Origin: Patescibacteria group bacterium
Lineage (GTDB): Bacteria > Patescibacteriota > Patescibacteriia > UBA1558 > UBA10009
NCBI GenBank assembly: GCA_018818425.1
Contig: JAHISB010000052.1
Span: 1 to 35,466, forward strand
Direction: 5' to 3'
DNA: 35,466 bases
Of the stretch, positions 24,717 through 34,408 are shown piece by piece; the stretch's first letter is position 1, and each line of letters begins with the position of its first letter. Under the pieces are notes generated by a model, which did no database searches, had not been told where the DNA came from, and was given only the letters and a program-made list of their open reading frames with translations. The translations under genes were made by a program, and so were the position numbers.

Positions 24717-26291
24717 TTAAATCAGCGGCCTTCCTGTCATTTCCTCGGGCCTTTTAAGCCCCATAATCTTAAGAATGGTCGGCGCCACGTCGGCCAGCAC
24801 GCCGGCCGGGGTCATCTGGCTTAAGTCGTTAGAAACCGCCCCTTGAGCCACCTTGCCTTTAAACTGTTCGCCGATGATTAAAAAGGGCACGGGCGAACTG
24901 CTGTGTTCTTTGTCAATTTCGCCGGTCTGCAGATTATAAAGCCCTTCGGCATTGCCGTGGTCGGCGGTTATTAACACTGACCCGCCGGCGTTCATGACGC
25001 TGCTGGCTACCTGGCCGATTAAATCATCAAGAACCTCGATGGCCTGAATGGTGGCAGGCAGATTGCCGCTATGAGACACCATATCGGCATTGGCATAATT
25101 CATTACTATAAAATCGTATTTATCGTCTTCAATTTCTTTGATTATACTGGCCGTAACTTCCGGTGCGCTCATTTCCGGCTTTTGGTCGTAAGCAGGCACC
25201 CGGGGCGAAGGAATTATCACCCTTTCCTCTCCCGGAAAAACCGTTTCTTCGCCGCCGTTAAAAAAGAAGGTGACATGGGCGTATTTTTCAGTTTCGGCAA
25301 TATGCAGCTGGGTCAGCCCGGCATCGCTAATTACTTTAGCTAAGGGTACTGTAATTTTTTCCGGCGGAAAGGCAACTTCCATAGGCAGGTCTTTTTCGTA
25401 TTCGGTCATGGCCACAAAAACCAAGTCCTGAATATATTTGGGGCGTTTGAATTTTTCAAAACCGGGCAAAACAAAGGCTTTGGCAAGCTGTCTGGCCCGG
25501 TCGGCCCGGAAATTAAAAAAGATCAAGCCGTCCCCTTCTTTAACCATTACCTTGGGCTGATCGTTGTTAGCAATAACCACCGGCACAAACTCCTCGTCAT
25601 AAACATTTTTTTGATACGATTCTTTGATGGCTGTTAAGGGATCGCTGTAAGTTTTATCAGCTTCGCCCAAAGCCATGGCTCGGTATGTTTTTTCGTTCCT
25701 TTCCCAATGATTATCTCTGTCCATAGCATAAAAACGGCCGCTTAAAGTGGCAATTTCGCCCAGGCCGATCTGTTGAAGCTTTTTCTGCAGCTGCTCGATG
25801 TATTTGACGCCGCTATTATAAGGAGTGTCCCGGCCGTCTAAAAAAGCATGAATATAAACTCTTTTGACTTTTTGGCTTTGAGCCGCTTCTAATAAAGCAT
25901 AAAGATGTTCGTTATAACTATGAACTCCGCCCGGGCTGACTAAACCCATTAGATGCAGATCGCCTGCTTTCTCGTTAACATGCCGGCAGGCATTAAGAAA
26001 AGCCGGATTATTAAAAAACGACCCGTCGGAAATTGAACGGGAGATCCGCGGCAAGCTTTGGTAAATAATTTTGCCCGATCCTAAAGAAAGATGGCCCACT
26101 TCCGAATTGCCCATCTCGCCCCACGACAAGCCGACCGCTTCGCCGGAGGCCTGGAGAGTAAAGGCGGGAAAATTAATCAAGTATGAATCAAAATTGGGCT
26201 TTTTGGCTAAAGTGATGGCATTGCCATGAGATGGCGGAGCCACGCCCCAGCCGTCAAGTATCATTAAAACTACTGGTTTTGGTCTGTTCAT
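24717..26291 (-). CDS. gpmI: 2,3-bisphosphoglycerate-independent phosphoglycerate mutase, copy 1
   Basis: A 524-residue Mn-dependent phosphoglycerate mutase, interconverting 3- and 2-phosphoglycerate in lower glycolysis. The catalytic serine is S63 in GNSEVGHL. The metal ligands are D13 (ILDGWG), DGRDTP, RADRARQL, and the C-terminal TADHGNAE/EHSSSPVP pair. It is full length. It lies directly downstream of a second iPGM, with about 110 bp of repeat between. The two clearly differ in sequence outside the motifs, so the duplication is not recent. Confidence 0.97.
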   Translation of the reverse strand: MNRPKPVVLMILDGWGVAPPSHGNAITLAKKPNFDSYLINFPAFTLQASGEAVGLSWGEMGNSEVGHLSLGSGKIIYQSLPRISRSISDGSFFNNPAFLNACRHVNEKAGDLHLMGLVSPGGVHSYNEHLYALLEAAQSQKVKRVYIHAFLDGRDTPYNSGVKYIEQLQKKLQQIGLGEIATLSGRFYAMDRDNHWERNEKTYRAMALGEADKTYSDPLTAIKESYQKNVYDEEFVPVVIANNDQPKVMVKEGDGLIFFNFRADRARQLAKAFVLPGFEKFKRPKYIQDLVFVAMTEYEKDLPMEVAFPPEKITVPLAKVISDAGLTQLHIAETEKYAHVTFFFNGGEETVFPGEERVIIPSPRVPAYDQKPEMSAPEVTASIIKEIEDDKYDFIVMNYANADMVSHSGNLPATIQAIEVLDDLIGQVASSVMNAGGSVLITADHGNAEGLYNLQTGEIDKEHSSSPVPFLIIGEQFKGKVAQGAVSNDLSQMTPAGVLADVAPTILKIMGLKRPEEMTGRPLI

Positions 26292-26400: not shown

Positions 26401-27960
26401 CTACTTACTAATTAGTGATTTTCCGGTCATTTCCTTGGGTTTTTTTAGTCCAAAAATATCGATAATAGTCGGAGCTACATCGGCCAGAATCCCCTTATTA
26501 ACCTTAACGTTCTGATGTTGTTTGGAAACCAAAATGAACGGCACAGGATAATTAGAGTGTTCTGTATCCACTTCGCCGGTTTCTAAATTTATCATTTCTT
26601 CAACATTGCCATGGTCAGCAGTGACTATTACTACGCCTTTTTTTCTTAAAACTGTCTTAATAATTTTAGCCAAACATTTATCGCAGGTTTCCACCGCCTT
26701 TATTCCGGCTTCTAAATTACCAGTATGGCCGACCATATCGGGATTGCATATATTCACTACCACGAACTGAGTTCCTTTTTTCTCCAAGTGTGAAATCAAC
26801 AAACCGGTAACTTCAACGGCGGACATTTCTGGCTTCTCGGCATACGATTTAACATTAGGCGAAGGCACCACTTCTCTTTCTTCGCCAGCTACCGTATGAT
26901 CGTAACCGCCGTTAAAAAAGAAGGTAACATGGGCATATTTTTCGGTTTCGGCAATATAGAGCTGTTTAAAATCTTTCATTACCATCGGCAAAGTATTGGT
27001 AAAATCTTTACTGGGGAAAGCAGTTAAAATGCTGTCCAAATCAGGGCCAAAATCGGTCATGGCCACAAATTTTAGATTTTGGTAAAAATGCTTTCTTTGA
27101 AAACAGCCGGGATTCATCTTGCAAAACTCTTTCTGAACAAAAGCTTTGCTAAGCTGTCTGGCTCTGTCGGACCGCAAATTAAAAAAGATAACACTGTCAT
27201 TATCTTTGATGGTGGCTATTGGCTTGCCATTTTTAACGACTATTGAAGGTTTAATAAACTCATCGGTTTCGCCGCGGTTATACGCCTGCAAAATGGCCTC
27301 TTCGCAATTTTCCACTTTAATTCCCTTGCCTAAAGTAAGCAAATCGTAGGCGCTTTGAGTTCTCTGCCACTGTTTGTTTCTGTCCATAGCGTAAAAGCGG
27401 CCGCAGATAGTGGCAATCTGCTGATTTTCGGACAAATATTCTTTTAATTTGCGCAGATATTTAATGGCCGCATGCTGGGGCGCATCGCGACCGTCGGTAA
27501 ACAAATGTAAAAAAACTTTTTTCACGTTTTTCTTCCTCATTAACTCAAGCAAAACATACAGATGGGACATAGCTACATGGGCGCTTTGCGTTCCGGATAA
27601 AAGCCCCATCAAGTGCATTGAGGATTTATGCTTTTGCACATGAGCAATGGCAGAAATAAAAGCGGGGTTCTTATGAAAGGTGCCGTCGGAAATGGCATCA
27701 GAAATTGCATAAACATCCTGCCAAGCAATCCGGCCGGCGCCCAAATTCAAATGGCCGGCTTCGGAATTGCCTTTTTGATTATGAGGCAAGCCCACTTTTT
27801 CGCCGCAGGCAATCAGCTGGCTGTGAGGGTATTTTTCAAGCAAATAGTCGTAAAACGGAGTTTTGCCCAAAACAATGGCATTGCCTTCTTTATGAGGCGA
27901 AATGCCCCAGCCATCTAAAATTACCAAAACCAAAGGGCCTTTAAATTTCTGACTTGACAT
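26401..27960 (-). CDS. 2,3-bisphosphoglycerate-independent phosphoglycerate mutase, copy 2
   Basis: About 519 residues from the ATG at 27960 (MSSQKFK; a TTG three codons earlier is possible but unlikely). Motifs are all retained: DGWGISPH, GNSEAGHL with the catalytic Ser, DGRDAPQ, RSDRARQL, TADHGNVE and EHSNYPVP. Both copies seem active. Differences, such as LNLGAGRIAWQD here against LSLGSGKIIYQS in copy 1, suggest long divergence. A gene dosage or specialised-substrate role cannot be told from sequence. A 10 bp inverted repeat lies in its 5' region. Confidence 0.95.
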   Translation of the reverse strand: MSSQKFKGPLVLVILDGWGISPHKEGNAIVLGKTPFYDYLLEKYPHSQLIACGEKVGLPHNQKGNSEAGHLNLGAGRIAWQDVYAISDAISDGTFHKNPAFISAIAHVQKHKSSMHLMGLLSGTQSAHVAMSHLYVLLELMRKKNVKKVFLHLFTDGRDAPQHAAIKYLRKLKEYLSENQQIATICGRFYAMDRNKQWQRTQSAYDLLTLGKGIKVENCEEAILQAYNRGETDEFIKPSIVVKNGKPIATIKDNDSVIFFNLRSDRARQLSKAFVQKEFCKMNPGCFQRKHFYQNLKFVAMTDFGPDLDSILTAFPSKDFTNTLPMVMKDFKQLYIAETEKYAHVTFFFNGGYDHTVAGEEREVVPSPNVKSYAEKPEMSAVEVTGLLISHLEKKGTQFVVVNICNPDMVGHTGNLEAGIKAVETCDKCLAKIIKTVLRKKGVVIVTADHGNVEEMINLETGEVDTEHSNYPVPFILVSKQHQNVKVNKGILADVAPTIIDIFGLKKPKEMTGKSLISK

Positions 27961-27985
27961 AATCCACAAAAAGAGTTATTAATAA

Positions 27986-29762: not shown

Positions 29763-29940
29763 AAAATTAAAACACTGATGAATCACGGATATCCACGGAT
29801 CCATCACAGATATCCACTGATGAACCACTAATATCAAAATCTGTGATTGATCTGTGATTCATCGGTGATAGATCGGTGAGTTATCTGTGTGTCATCAGCG
29901 AACTGTCCGTGATTATCCGTGAGTTATCTGTGTTCTTATT
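29763..29940. repeat. Word-repeat island upstream of enolase
   Basis: Left words (CACTGATGAATCACGG, GATATCCACGG, CACAGATATCCACTG) face right words (CTGTGATTCATCGGTG, GTGAGTTATCTGTG, CTGTCCGTGATTATCCGTG) as reversed complements. About 170 bp can fold into a long imperfect hairpin. The vocabulary matches 10437-10545. Confidence 0.8.
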
Positions 29941-29968
29941 TTACCAAAAAACGACAAATAATAAAAGA

Positions 29969-29997
29969 AAAAGGTTCAGAAAAAATCTGAACCTTTT
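29969..29997 (-). terminator. Intrinsic terminator after the 48-residue gene
   Basis: AAAGGTTCAGA and TCTGAACCTTT with a short A-rich loop. On the minus strand a run of T follows. It lies 6 bp past the stop at 30003. Confidence 0.85.
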
Positions 29998-30002
29998 TAA
30001 AT

Positions 30003-30149
30003 CTAGGGGAGTTGCTGCAATAGCTGTTCCAACAAGTGATTGATGATCTCAATCAGTCTTGAAAGAATTTCAACTAATTTTGCAACAACTTCTGGCGCAA
30101 CCAAAACCAAAATAATCAAAAAGATTATGCCCCCAATAAACTTTCCCAT
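30003..30149 (-). CDS. Small amphipathic membrane protein (48 residues)
   Basis: A short gene beginning MGKFIGGIIFLIILVLVAPE, an N-terminal TM (about 4-18), followed by an amphipathic helix rich in V, L, I, E (residues 20-48: VAKLVEILSRLIEIINHLLE without gaps), ending QQLP. It has a strong promoter 140 bp upstream, a structured leader and a terminator. TatA-like (short TM then amphipathic helix) in layout, but it lacks the FG motif of TatA; it could also be a small toxin or holin-like peptide. Family not recognised. Confidence 0.6.
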   Translation of the reverse strand: MGKFIGGIIFLIILVLVAPEVVAKLVEILSRLIEIINHLLEQLLQQLP

Positions 30150-30169
30150 ATAATTATCAATAATTATGG

Positions 30170-30322: not shown

Positions 30323-30503
30323 TACCTGACTTTTAAAGATACAAACCCGCCCCGCTTCAAGCGGCAAAGTAAATTTATTCCGAGTTTGTTGGTGGATTAT
30401 TACGCAAGTGGATAGGGAGTTTAGGTGAAGTAACACTAAGCAACCCCGAGCGAGCGTAGCGAGTTGATGATGAGTCGAAGGGGAACATAATCACATATGG
30501 GGC

Positions 30504-31539
30504 GTTATGTGCCGTACACTTTTTAATCACTATTATATTCTAATGTTTGTAAATTATTCATATCCTTTTGAATCAATGTTCTTGGACATATTACATGAAA
30601 CACATTAAACTTCCCAAATTTTTTATTTTTCTTACTATATCCACCAGGGCTTCCTAAGATATAACCATATTTTGAATTTTTAGCAAAGCTGGAATGTATC
30701 AAAGCTGGAAAAACACATAATACGCCATTAAAATATTTTAAATCTAAAACTGGATGAGAAAATATAGCACCGGGATCATGTATGTAGTTAACTATACGGT
30801 GATTAATGAAAGGTTTTTGATTATACTCATATATATATTTATTAGCTTCCTCGGGGAAAATAAAAAATTCCAATAAGTAGGAATTTAAAATAGTTTCTTT
30901 TTGATCAAAAAATCTTCCTGTAAAATCACCTTTTTCTTTATCTAATATAATGTATTGATGTCCTTTTATACGTTTAGTTAATAATTCAAAGCTTTCATTA
31001 ACTCCCCAGCAGTTAAAAACAAAAGTCGGCCCACTTTTGACAGGATTATGTAGAGGAGAGGAAAAAATGCCAATGCCTTTTGGTTTGCCTGTAATTTTAT
31101 TAATGCCAGATAATATACCATCACCTGATAGTTGTACAAAGCCACTTTTATGAATTGATAATTTTGTAGTCTTGTCCACAATAAATTCTTTTTTGATCTG
31201 ATACGGCTTGACATAAAATATTCCTGCTTTATATTTATGTTTGTGTTCTTTAATATATGCATTTTTATCTTTGCAATATGGAAAAAATATATTAATACTT
31301 CCGTCTTTTTTAGAACAATTTATTGATAGTATTTTGTAGGTTTTATCTTTTTCTCTAATACAAACAACAGTTCTTTCAAAAGGTTTAGTTGGTAAAGAAG
31401 ATAAGCCGACTATAACATTAGTAAAACCACCTCTTTTTAATAAAATAAAACGATTAAGATCGTGCATTTAAAAAAATTAAATTGTTTATAAATAAACAAT
31501 TTGTTATTTTAATATATAAAAAAATGTATGGCACATAAC
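30504..31539. mobile_element. Candidate 1 kb cassette bounded by 15 bp inverted repeats
   Basis: Left boundary GTTATGTGCCGTACA (30504-30518); right boundary TGTATGGCACATAAC (31525-31539): reversed complements with one mismatch. A single AT-rich gene fills the space. The surrounding genes are lower glycolysis, so the block interrupts an otherwise logical order. No transposase is inside. To the left (30440-30500) an imperfect hairpin, CCCCGAGC...GAAGGGG, resembles recombination-site or REP structures. Confidence 0.5.
30523..31467 (-). CDS. Unknown 314-residue protein within an inverted-repeat cassette
   Basis: No family recognised. The protein is rich in K, I, F, Y and N (its DNA is clearly more AT-rich than its neighbours), without TM segments. 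There are three short cysteine-bearing segments (SINCSKKDG, FFPYCKDK, FNCWGVNE) and a C-terminus with GSPGGYSKKNKKFGKFNVFH. The context is a 1 kb block with terminal inverted repeats, so horizontal acquisition is likely. The ATG at 31467 has no visible SD. Confidence 0.55.
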   Translation of the reverse strand: MHDLNRFILLKRGGFTNVIVGLSSLPTKPFERTVVCIREKDKTYKILSINCSKKDGSINIFFPYCKDKNAYIKEHKHKYKAGIFYVKPYQIKKEFIVDKTTKLSIHKSGFVQLSGDGILSGINKITGKPKGIGIFSSPLHNPVKSGPTFVFNCWGVNESFELLTKRIKGHQYIILDKEKGDFTGRFFDQKETILNSYLLEFFIFPEEANKYIYEYNQKPFINHRIVNYIHDPGAIFSHPVLDLKYFNGVLCVFPALIHSSFAKNSKYGYILGSPGGYSKKNKKFGKFNVFHVICPRTLIQKDMNNLQTLEYNSD

Positions 31540-33157: not shown

Positions 33158-34408
33158 TTAATGTGTAGCACAGCTAATACAAGGATCGTAAGCCCTGATC
33201 AACATTTTGATTTTATGGCGGCGTTCGTCAACGCTCATCTTGGAGGTCTGCGGCAGATAAACAGCCAGATCATCCTCTAAATTGCCTAAAAACATCACGG
33301 TCGGGGTAATAATATCGGCTCTGACAATTCTGCCTAAGCGATTAACTTCGTAGTAATGAAGCAAAACTCCGCGCGGCGCTTCCACGGCCGCTACACCTTT
33401 GCCTGCTTTGATTTTATATTTTTTTGATTCTTCGGTCTTGGATTTTAGGTCTTGGGTAATCTTTTCAACCTCCTCAACGCAATGCACAACTTCAACGGCC
33501 TGGGCTAATACATTGTAAAAACTGTTATAGACTTTCTTTTTGCCGTGAATCTTTGACCAAAGTTTTTTAGCTTCTTTATTAAGCTGATGGCCATGATTAT
33601 TGATTCTGGCCAGAGCGCCAACCATGTAATGGGCATCGAACCACACAGCCCGCTTGGCCATGGCTCCTTTTTCTTCCACCTCCTGCATTTTTTGATAAAA
33701 ATTCATTGGCTGATATTCAAAACCGTCGGAATTCATTACTTTGCCGTTGTAAATGGCATATTCATCCATATCCGAAAGCGTGATGTATTCTGTTTTTCTT
33801 TCAAATTTTGGATATTTTAATTTAGAAAAAAATCTGGCTAAATTAAGGGCATCTTTTAGCGCATCCTCAATCTTTAGTTTTAAATTTTCAATTTCTTTCT
33901 TTTCAGGCGTAACCTTAAACCCGCCAATCCAGTTGTTTAAAGGATGAATGGCCCGGCCGCCGACTGCTTCGTTAATCAGGTTGCCAAAATCACGGAGTCT
34001 GATAGCCAGTTGGGCTTCTTGAGGATATTTTTTTAACAGCAGACGGGTATCATCATAATTAAAAAAATCCGGCAAAGACATAAAAAACAGATGCATAGCA
34101 TGGGAATGAATCAACTGCGCCAGCTCCATCAGCTTTCTTAACTGAATGGTCTGCGGGCTGACTTTAATTTCCAGAATATTTTCCATGGCCTTAATGGCCG
34201 CCAAATTATGAACTATGGGGCAGATGCCGCAGATGCGCATAGTGATAACATGGGCGTCAAAAAGCGACTTGCCTTTAAGACAGCCCTCAATTAATCTGAC
34301 TCCCTCTTCAGTAATGATTTTAGCTTGAGTAACATCGCCGTTTTCCAGAGCGCCAATAAAGCTGGCATGCCCTTCCATTTTAGCTAAGTGATTTATTTGT
34401 ATTTTCAT
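33158..34408 (-). CDS. NiFe-hydrogenase large (catalytic) subunit
   Basis: A 416-residue catalytic subunit that binds the NiFe(CN)2CO centre. It has L1 (HLAKMEGHA), L2 RICGIC (C60, C63) and L5 DPCISCATH (C410, C413, H416), so all four Ni-binding cysteines are present. The pattern is like group 3 (cytoplasmic, NAD(P)-linked) enzymes. The protein ends exactly at the histidine where the maturation protease usually cuts, so no C-terminal extension exists. Two repeat-word segments lie within it (ENLKLKIED and TQDLKSKTEESKK). The small subunit and diaphorase genes are not next to it. Confidence 0.9.
   Translation of the reverse strand: MKIQINHLAKMEGHASFIGALENGDVTQAKIITEEGVRLIEGCLKGKSLFDAHVITMRICGICPIVHNLAAIKAMENILEIKVSPQTIQLRKLMELAQLIHSHAMHLFFMSLPDFFNYDDTRLLLKKYPQEAQLAIRLRDFGNLINEAVGGRAIHPLNNWIGGFKVTPEKKEIENLKLKIEDALKDALNLARFFSKLKYPKFERKTEYITLSDMDEYAIYNGKVMNSDGFEYQPMNFYQKMQEVEEKGAMAKRAVWFDAHYMVGALARINNHGHQLNKEAKKLWSKIHGKKKVYNSFYNVLAQAVEVVHCVEEVEKITQDLKSKTEESKKYKIKAGKGVAAVEAPRGVLLHYYEVNRLGRIVRADIITPTVMFLGNLEDDLAVYLPQTSKMSVDERRHKIKMLIRAYDPCISCATH

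Follow-up and report, generated by a model that had tools for sequence, protein, structure and literature searches.

Analysis of a contig of 35,466 nucleotides from a Patescibacteria group bacterium (hereafter the window, meaning the entire stretch) reveals that a single foreign gene, in a unit whose ends carry significant inverted repeats, has been inserted between the glycolytic genes pgk and eno. The inserted unit occupies positions 30504–31539 (1036 bp, not assigned to a strand), is present in a single copy in the genome, and has a GC content of 26.9%. Its gene, ORF314 (30523–31467, minus strand), was called as an open reading frame and through its homologues, and encodes a 314-residue protein of an unnamed family whose members, judging from gene order, keep company with defence genes; the family appears to be undescribed, and we regard ORF314 as a candidate defence-associated gene. 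Patescibacteria have small genomes and their gene acquisition is poorly known; this unit is a concrete case, in that its point of insertion behind pgk is precise, its ends are clear and its cargo belongs to a family that can be recognised. Absent from the searched protein and defence libraries and encoded next to four distinct defence systems, that family is a candidate for a new defence function that can be put to the test.

The gene order pgk-eno-gpmI is conserved in relatives, and in 25 of the 26 with usable sequence the distance from the pgk stop to the eno start is between −44 and 204 bp; the sole exception (G020) has a gap of 686 bp on a contig of just 3.7 kb. In the window the gap is about 1.8 kb. 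Neither ORF314 nor its pair of flanking repeats was found in other genomes of the order (36 genomes for the repeat pair), and there is no second pair in this genome, which is 94.5% complete. The large gap, against the close spacing in relatives and together with the foreign composition, therefore indicates a lineage-specific, horizontally acquired insertion, which landed immediately after the pgk stop codon and broke up an arrangement that the rest of the order conserves. The synteny retained to either side speaks against a misassembly caused by the repeats of the gap. An earlier examination of the DNA by itself (the sequence-only reading) had proposed a mobile unit with an accessory gene among lower-glycolysis genes, and an inserted accessory gene of foreign origin is borne out: the neighbors are pgk, eno and two copies of gpmI, and none of the relatives has this gene here, with or without repeats. 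The two gpmI genes, both full-length and encoding cofactor-independent phosphoglycerate mutases, are adjacent and in tandem (24717–26291 and 26401–27969).

The composition of the unit is strikingly different from its surroundings. No other 1-kb stretch of the window is as AT-rich, the kilobases to either side having 41.4% and 42.4% GC, and the GC3 of ORF314 is 17.8%, compared with 33–51% in 15 other genes. The protein family as such is not AT-rich, since the ORF of a full-length homologue described below (L042) is 40% GC. ORF314 is by itself downstream of pgk, and the two may share a transcript. Between the right end of the unit and the start of ORF314 is an AT-rich leader (31468–31524, minus strand), which carries an imperfect 24-nt palindrome (31466–31515); there is one weak promoter-like match at 31534–31506, and such matches are no commoner than in shuffled sequence.

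The inverted repeats have several informative features. First, the left arm GTTATGTGCCGTACA (30504–30518, plus strand) and the right arm TGTATGGCACATAAC (31525–31539, minus strand, where it reads GTTATGTGCCATACA) pair at 14 of 15 positions, the single mismatch, the coordinates and the ORF all being as the sequence-only reading gave them, and the motif GTTATGTGCCRTACA is present at both ends of the unit. Second, this 15-nt core extends imperfectly to 30527 on the left and to 31516 on the right, a repeat search giving a looser pairing of 24 nt at 88% (30504–30527 with 31516–31539). Third, the right arm lies 14 bp past the pgk stop codon, and both arms coincide with the sharp step in composition. 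Fourth, pairing of 14/15 between the two border regions (95 bp and 89 bp) was reached in only 2 of 20,000 dinucleotide shuffles, and ORF314 is alone among the 33 genes of the window in having such a border pair, the other genes reaching at most 9–13. The pair by itself would be unconvincing because inverted 15-mers matching at 14 positions and no more than 2 kb apart are common (27 overlapping matches across the window); it is the position that is telling. Finally, a search of the rest of the genome, as had been suggested, shows that the arms occur only once; putative arms in G005, in G021 and at G000:C6 of this genome have no partner arm nearby.

This arrangement resembles that of the mobile insertion cassettes (MICs), such as MIC231 of Bacillus cereus and mic-qnrD of the Proteeae, which are about 1–1.5 kb long, have short imperfect inverted repeats, and contain a passenger gene only, with the transposase gene absent nearby and a target-site duplication usually observed (PMC3913671). 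Like a MIC, the unit is bracketed at both ends by inverted repeats and holds a passenger gene but no transposase gene, its single ORF having no transposase-like family match. It differs in two respects: MICs usually duplicate their target site, whereas inspection of the flanks (atatggggc and atcacccac) reveals no duplication of any length, and MICs share their ends with a known insertion sequence (IS231), whereas this unit is single-copy and no related insertion sequence was found, this genome and 36 genomes of the order having no second pair of such arms and no transposase with the same ends. Because the duplication is absent, we say that the unit works like a MIC rather than that it is one. 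Our best reading is nonetheless a MIC-like passenger unit that lacks a transposase and has a candidate anti-phage gene as its cargo, a view held tentatively and at a little below even chance. The 15-bp inverted repeats would then most likely be the ends of the unit, and its likeliest route of entry would be as a passenger-only element moved in trans by a transposase encoded outside this genome; transposition itself we can only infer, because there is neither a transposase nor a target-site duplication. The suggested non-autonomous transposable unit is thus a candidate only: the inverted repeats fit it, but the flanks show no target-site duplication, and the genome has neither a second copy nor a transposase with partner ends.

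These same absences lend some plausibility to horizontal gain into a permissive gap through recombination, either illegitimate or mediated by repeats, with the inverted repeats being incidental or serving another role such as a regulator site, and we consider this a real contender at appreciably less than even chance. The gap does collect insertions (the dispersed ATCNGTGA repeat, with about 24 places in the genome, and a 19-copy palindromic repeat), inverted pairs at 14/15 are common over the window, and homologues of ORF314 move without terminal repeats: no inverted repeats matching at 13 or more of 15 positions were found around them, so that the terminal repeats belong to this one insertion and not to the family. 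Incidental repeats would not, however, be expected to lie exactly at both composition borders, to be matched in so few shuffles, or to be unique among the genes of the window. Very improbable, by comparison, is a gene cassette of the integron kind, in which an attC-type recombination site would follow the ORF, as the sequence-only reading had also entertained in outline: the unit shares with such cassettes its one gene and short inverted end sequences, the arms start with GTTATGT and ACATAAC in loose resemblance to an R-box, and there is a second ATTATGTTCC on the minus strand 12 bp past the downstream arm, but the candidate attC site spans just about 32 bp, known attC sites being longer, the sequence past that arm shows no more folding than its shuffles do (z = +1.1), GTTATGT does not match the GTTRRRY core, no second such core is present at attC distance, and the single-copy arms are not part of a cassette array; we therefore reject it.

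The MIC-like reading places the interest of the unit in its cargo. ORF314 has no match in Pfam, NCBIfam, PHROGs, PADLOC or PDB (for PADLOC, no match at E≤1), in agreement with the earlier description of an AT-rich 314-residue protein of no recognised family. A match to pentaxin was under the cut-off, and weak matches, such as one to an M23 peptidase in G052 (L005), were dismissed as chance. Protein scans with the whole ORF found no relatives, and it was a conserved-looking piece of 62 residues that recovered a homologue in Candidatus Zambryskibacteria RIFCSPLOWO2_01_FULL_39_39 (L042:160–1092), with 48% identity to ORF314 over its full length. Identity of this extent in a differently composed genome indicates that ORF314 is a real conserved gene. 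Profiles built from these two proteins were used to reach more distant members: two copies in G550, one in G856 (a genome that requires code 25, with TGA read as glycine), one in G662, one encoded by a conjugative plasmid of Legionella longbeachae (matched at E 7e-22 by the G662 protein), and two in G1349 and G1176, both of them located where a contig ends. Scans of viruses found no relative.

By sequence comparison these proteins form a single unnamed family of about 275–315 residues. Profiles of two subgroups align over their full length in a profile-profile comparison (E 1.8e-7, probability 93.8%), and a signature of roughly K-x-[ST]-x-[HP]-x-x-G-x-x-[HQ]-[FLIV]-[SK] is common to the family. 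It is rare in the phylum, occurring in a handful of genomes in several searches of 350–380. The fold is probably rich in beta strands, and no catalytic motif or known fold was identified in the family; AlphaFold gave a pLDDT of 31 from the single sequence and 30 from two sequences, and at such values no fold can back a function. In one homologue (L069:39–890), which also includes a short masked stretch (X), a SEC-C-like zinc motif, DPCPCGSGKKYKKCH, is found at the N terminus; next to this homologue is a small HTH gene. At two unrelated loci (L064:7173–7772 and L054:4165–4776) the gene directly upstream of the homologue encodes a protein of about 200 residues that contains a hydrophobic segment and is possibly a recurrent partner.

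The genomic neighborhoods of the homologues are the main pointer to function. Defence genes adjoin four of the six informative loci, in three genomes, as a raw count without a calibrated background. The first copy in G550 follows an AbiV HEPN gene (PF18728, 2e-25; PADLOC AbiV, 1e-15) at a distance of about 30 bp, the pair spanning L043:768–2139, and has tRNA-Thr about 10 bp away; the second is the last gene in a one-strand run, with small gaps, of AbiLii-like, HsdR, HsdM, HsdS, a 199-aa protein, and the homologue. In G856 the homologue is located between HTH_VI and RT_VI genes (a type VI retron) on one side and an EcoRI-type methylase with a type II restriction enzyme on the other (L065), and in G662 it adjoins both a DUF4145/PD-T7-4-like HEPN gene and tRNA-Gly. 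The HEPN families AbiV and DUF4145 have been described as domains of defence and intragenomic conflict (PMC3710099). Defence neighbors are weaker or absent for the L042, Legionella and two contig-end homologues; farther down the L042 contig are genes for a Panacea-type antitoxin and for a small toxin-like protein, and the neighbor on the Legionella plasmid has a weak PADLOC match alone. At the four loci the homologues thus hold positions like those of defence-island accessory genes, although ORF314 itself matches no defence profile and stands alone in the window.

Taken from these gene contexts, ORF314 is a candidate accessory anti-phage factor, and most plausibly would be a sensing or targeting partner for effectors of the HEPN or restriction-modification type. 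The defence role suggested earlier is thereby strengthened through the neighbors of most informative homologues, though not through any PADLOC match of ORF314. It is rather unlikely, but by no means negligible, that ORF314 is instead a non-defence accessory gene (metabolic or envelope-related, for example) found near defence genes only as shared mobile cargo, an explanation that concerns function alone and fits any route of entry. Homologues do adjoin tRNA genes and sit on conjugative plasmids, where any cargo collects, and the missing catalytic motif and fold leave room for it; against it, homologues lie close to AbiV, and to HsdS and the gene that comes after it, and run in the same direction at gaps of about 20–30 bp, and the linkage recurs in different lineages with different defence partners. 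A more ambitious version of the anti-phage reading, which we consider improbable in its entirety, is that the proteins would constitute a new immune family extending from Patescibacteria to Legionella conjugative plasmids, acting as the common partner of unrelated effectors (AbiV and PD-T7-4-like HEPN proteins, type I restriction-modification, and retron VI) and carried here in a self-contained inverted-repeat unit.

The pgk-eno gap contains other elements besides the unit. Between eno and the unit is a tandem and palindromic array of the ATCNGTGA type (29773–29940), whose related places elsewhere in the genome have roughly 70–94% identity. A 48-residue hydrophobic or amphipathic ORF, MGKFIGGIIFLIILVLVAPEVVAKLVEILSRLIEIINHLLEQLLQQLP, is present on the minus strand at 30002–30150, with a strong intrinsic terminator directly after it (29968–29998). 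The imperfect hairpin at 30440–30500, which the sequence-only reading had described as adjoining the left border, is separate from the unit, containing a copy (CCCCGAGCGAGCGTAGCGAGTCGA..GGGG, 30444–30484) of the dispersed palindromic repeat GAGCGTAGCGAGTCGA that occurs at 19 places in the genome and at none in a reversed control; this copy has an extra TGATGAGTCGA-like stretch. Where Rfam models match in the gap, they do so below their gathering scores and on simple repeats.

Elsewhere in the window, a RhuM-like protein is encoded near the contig end (34563–35450), three genes from ORF314, and matches the PADLOC candidate PDC-S05 (E 3e-124); a PADLOC scan of nine other window genes gave no match in eight. 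Directly upstream of pgk is a gene resembling the large subunit of NiFe-hydrogenase (33158–34408), assigned by eye, and the same hydrogenase-like gene adjoins pgk in two members of the same taxonomic family, G003 and G002.
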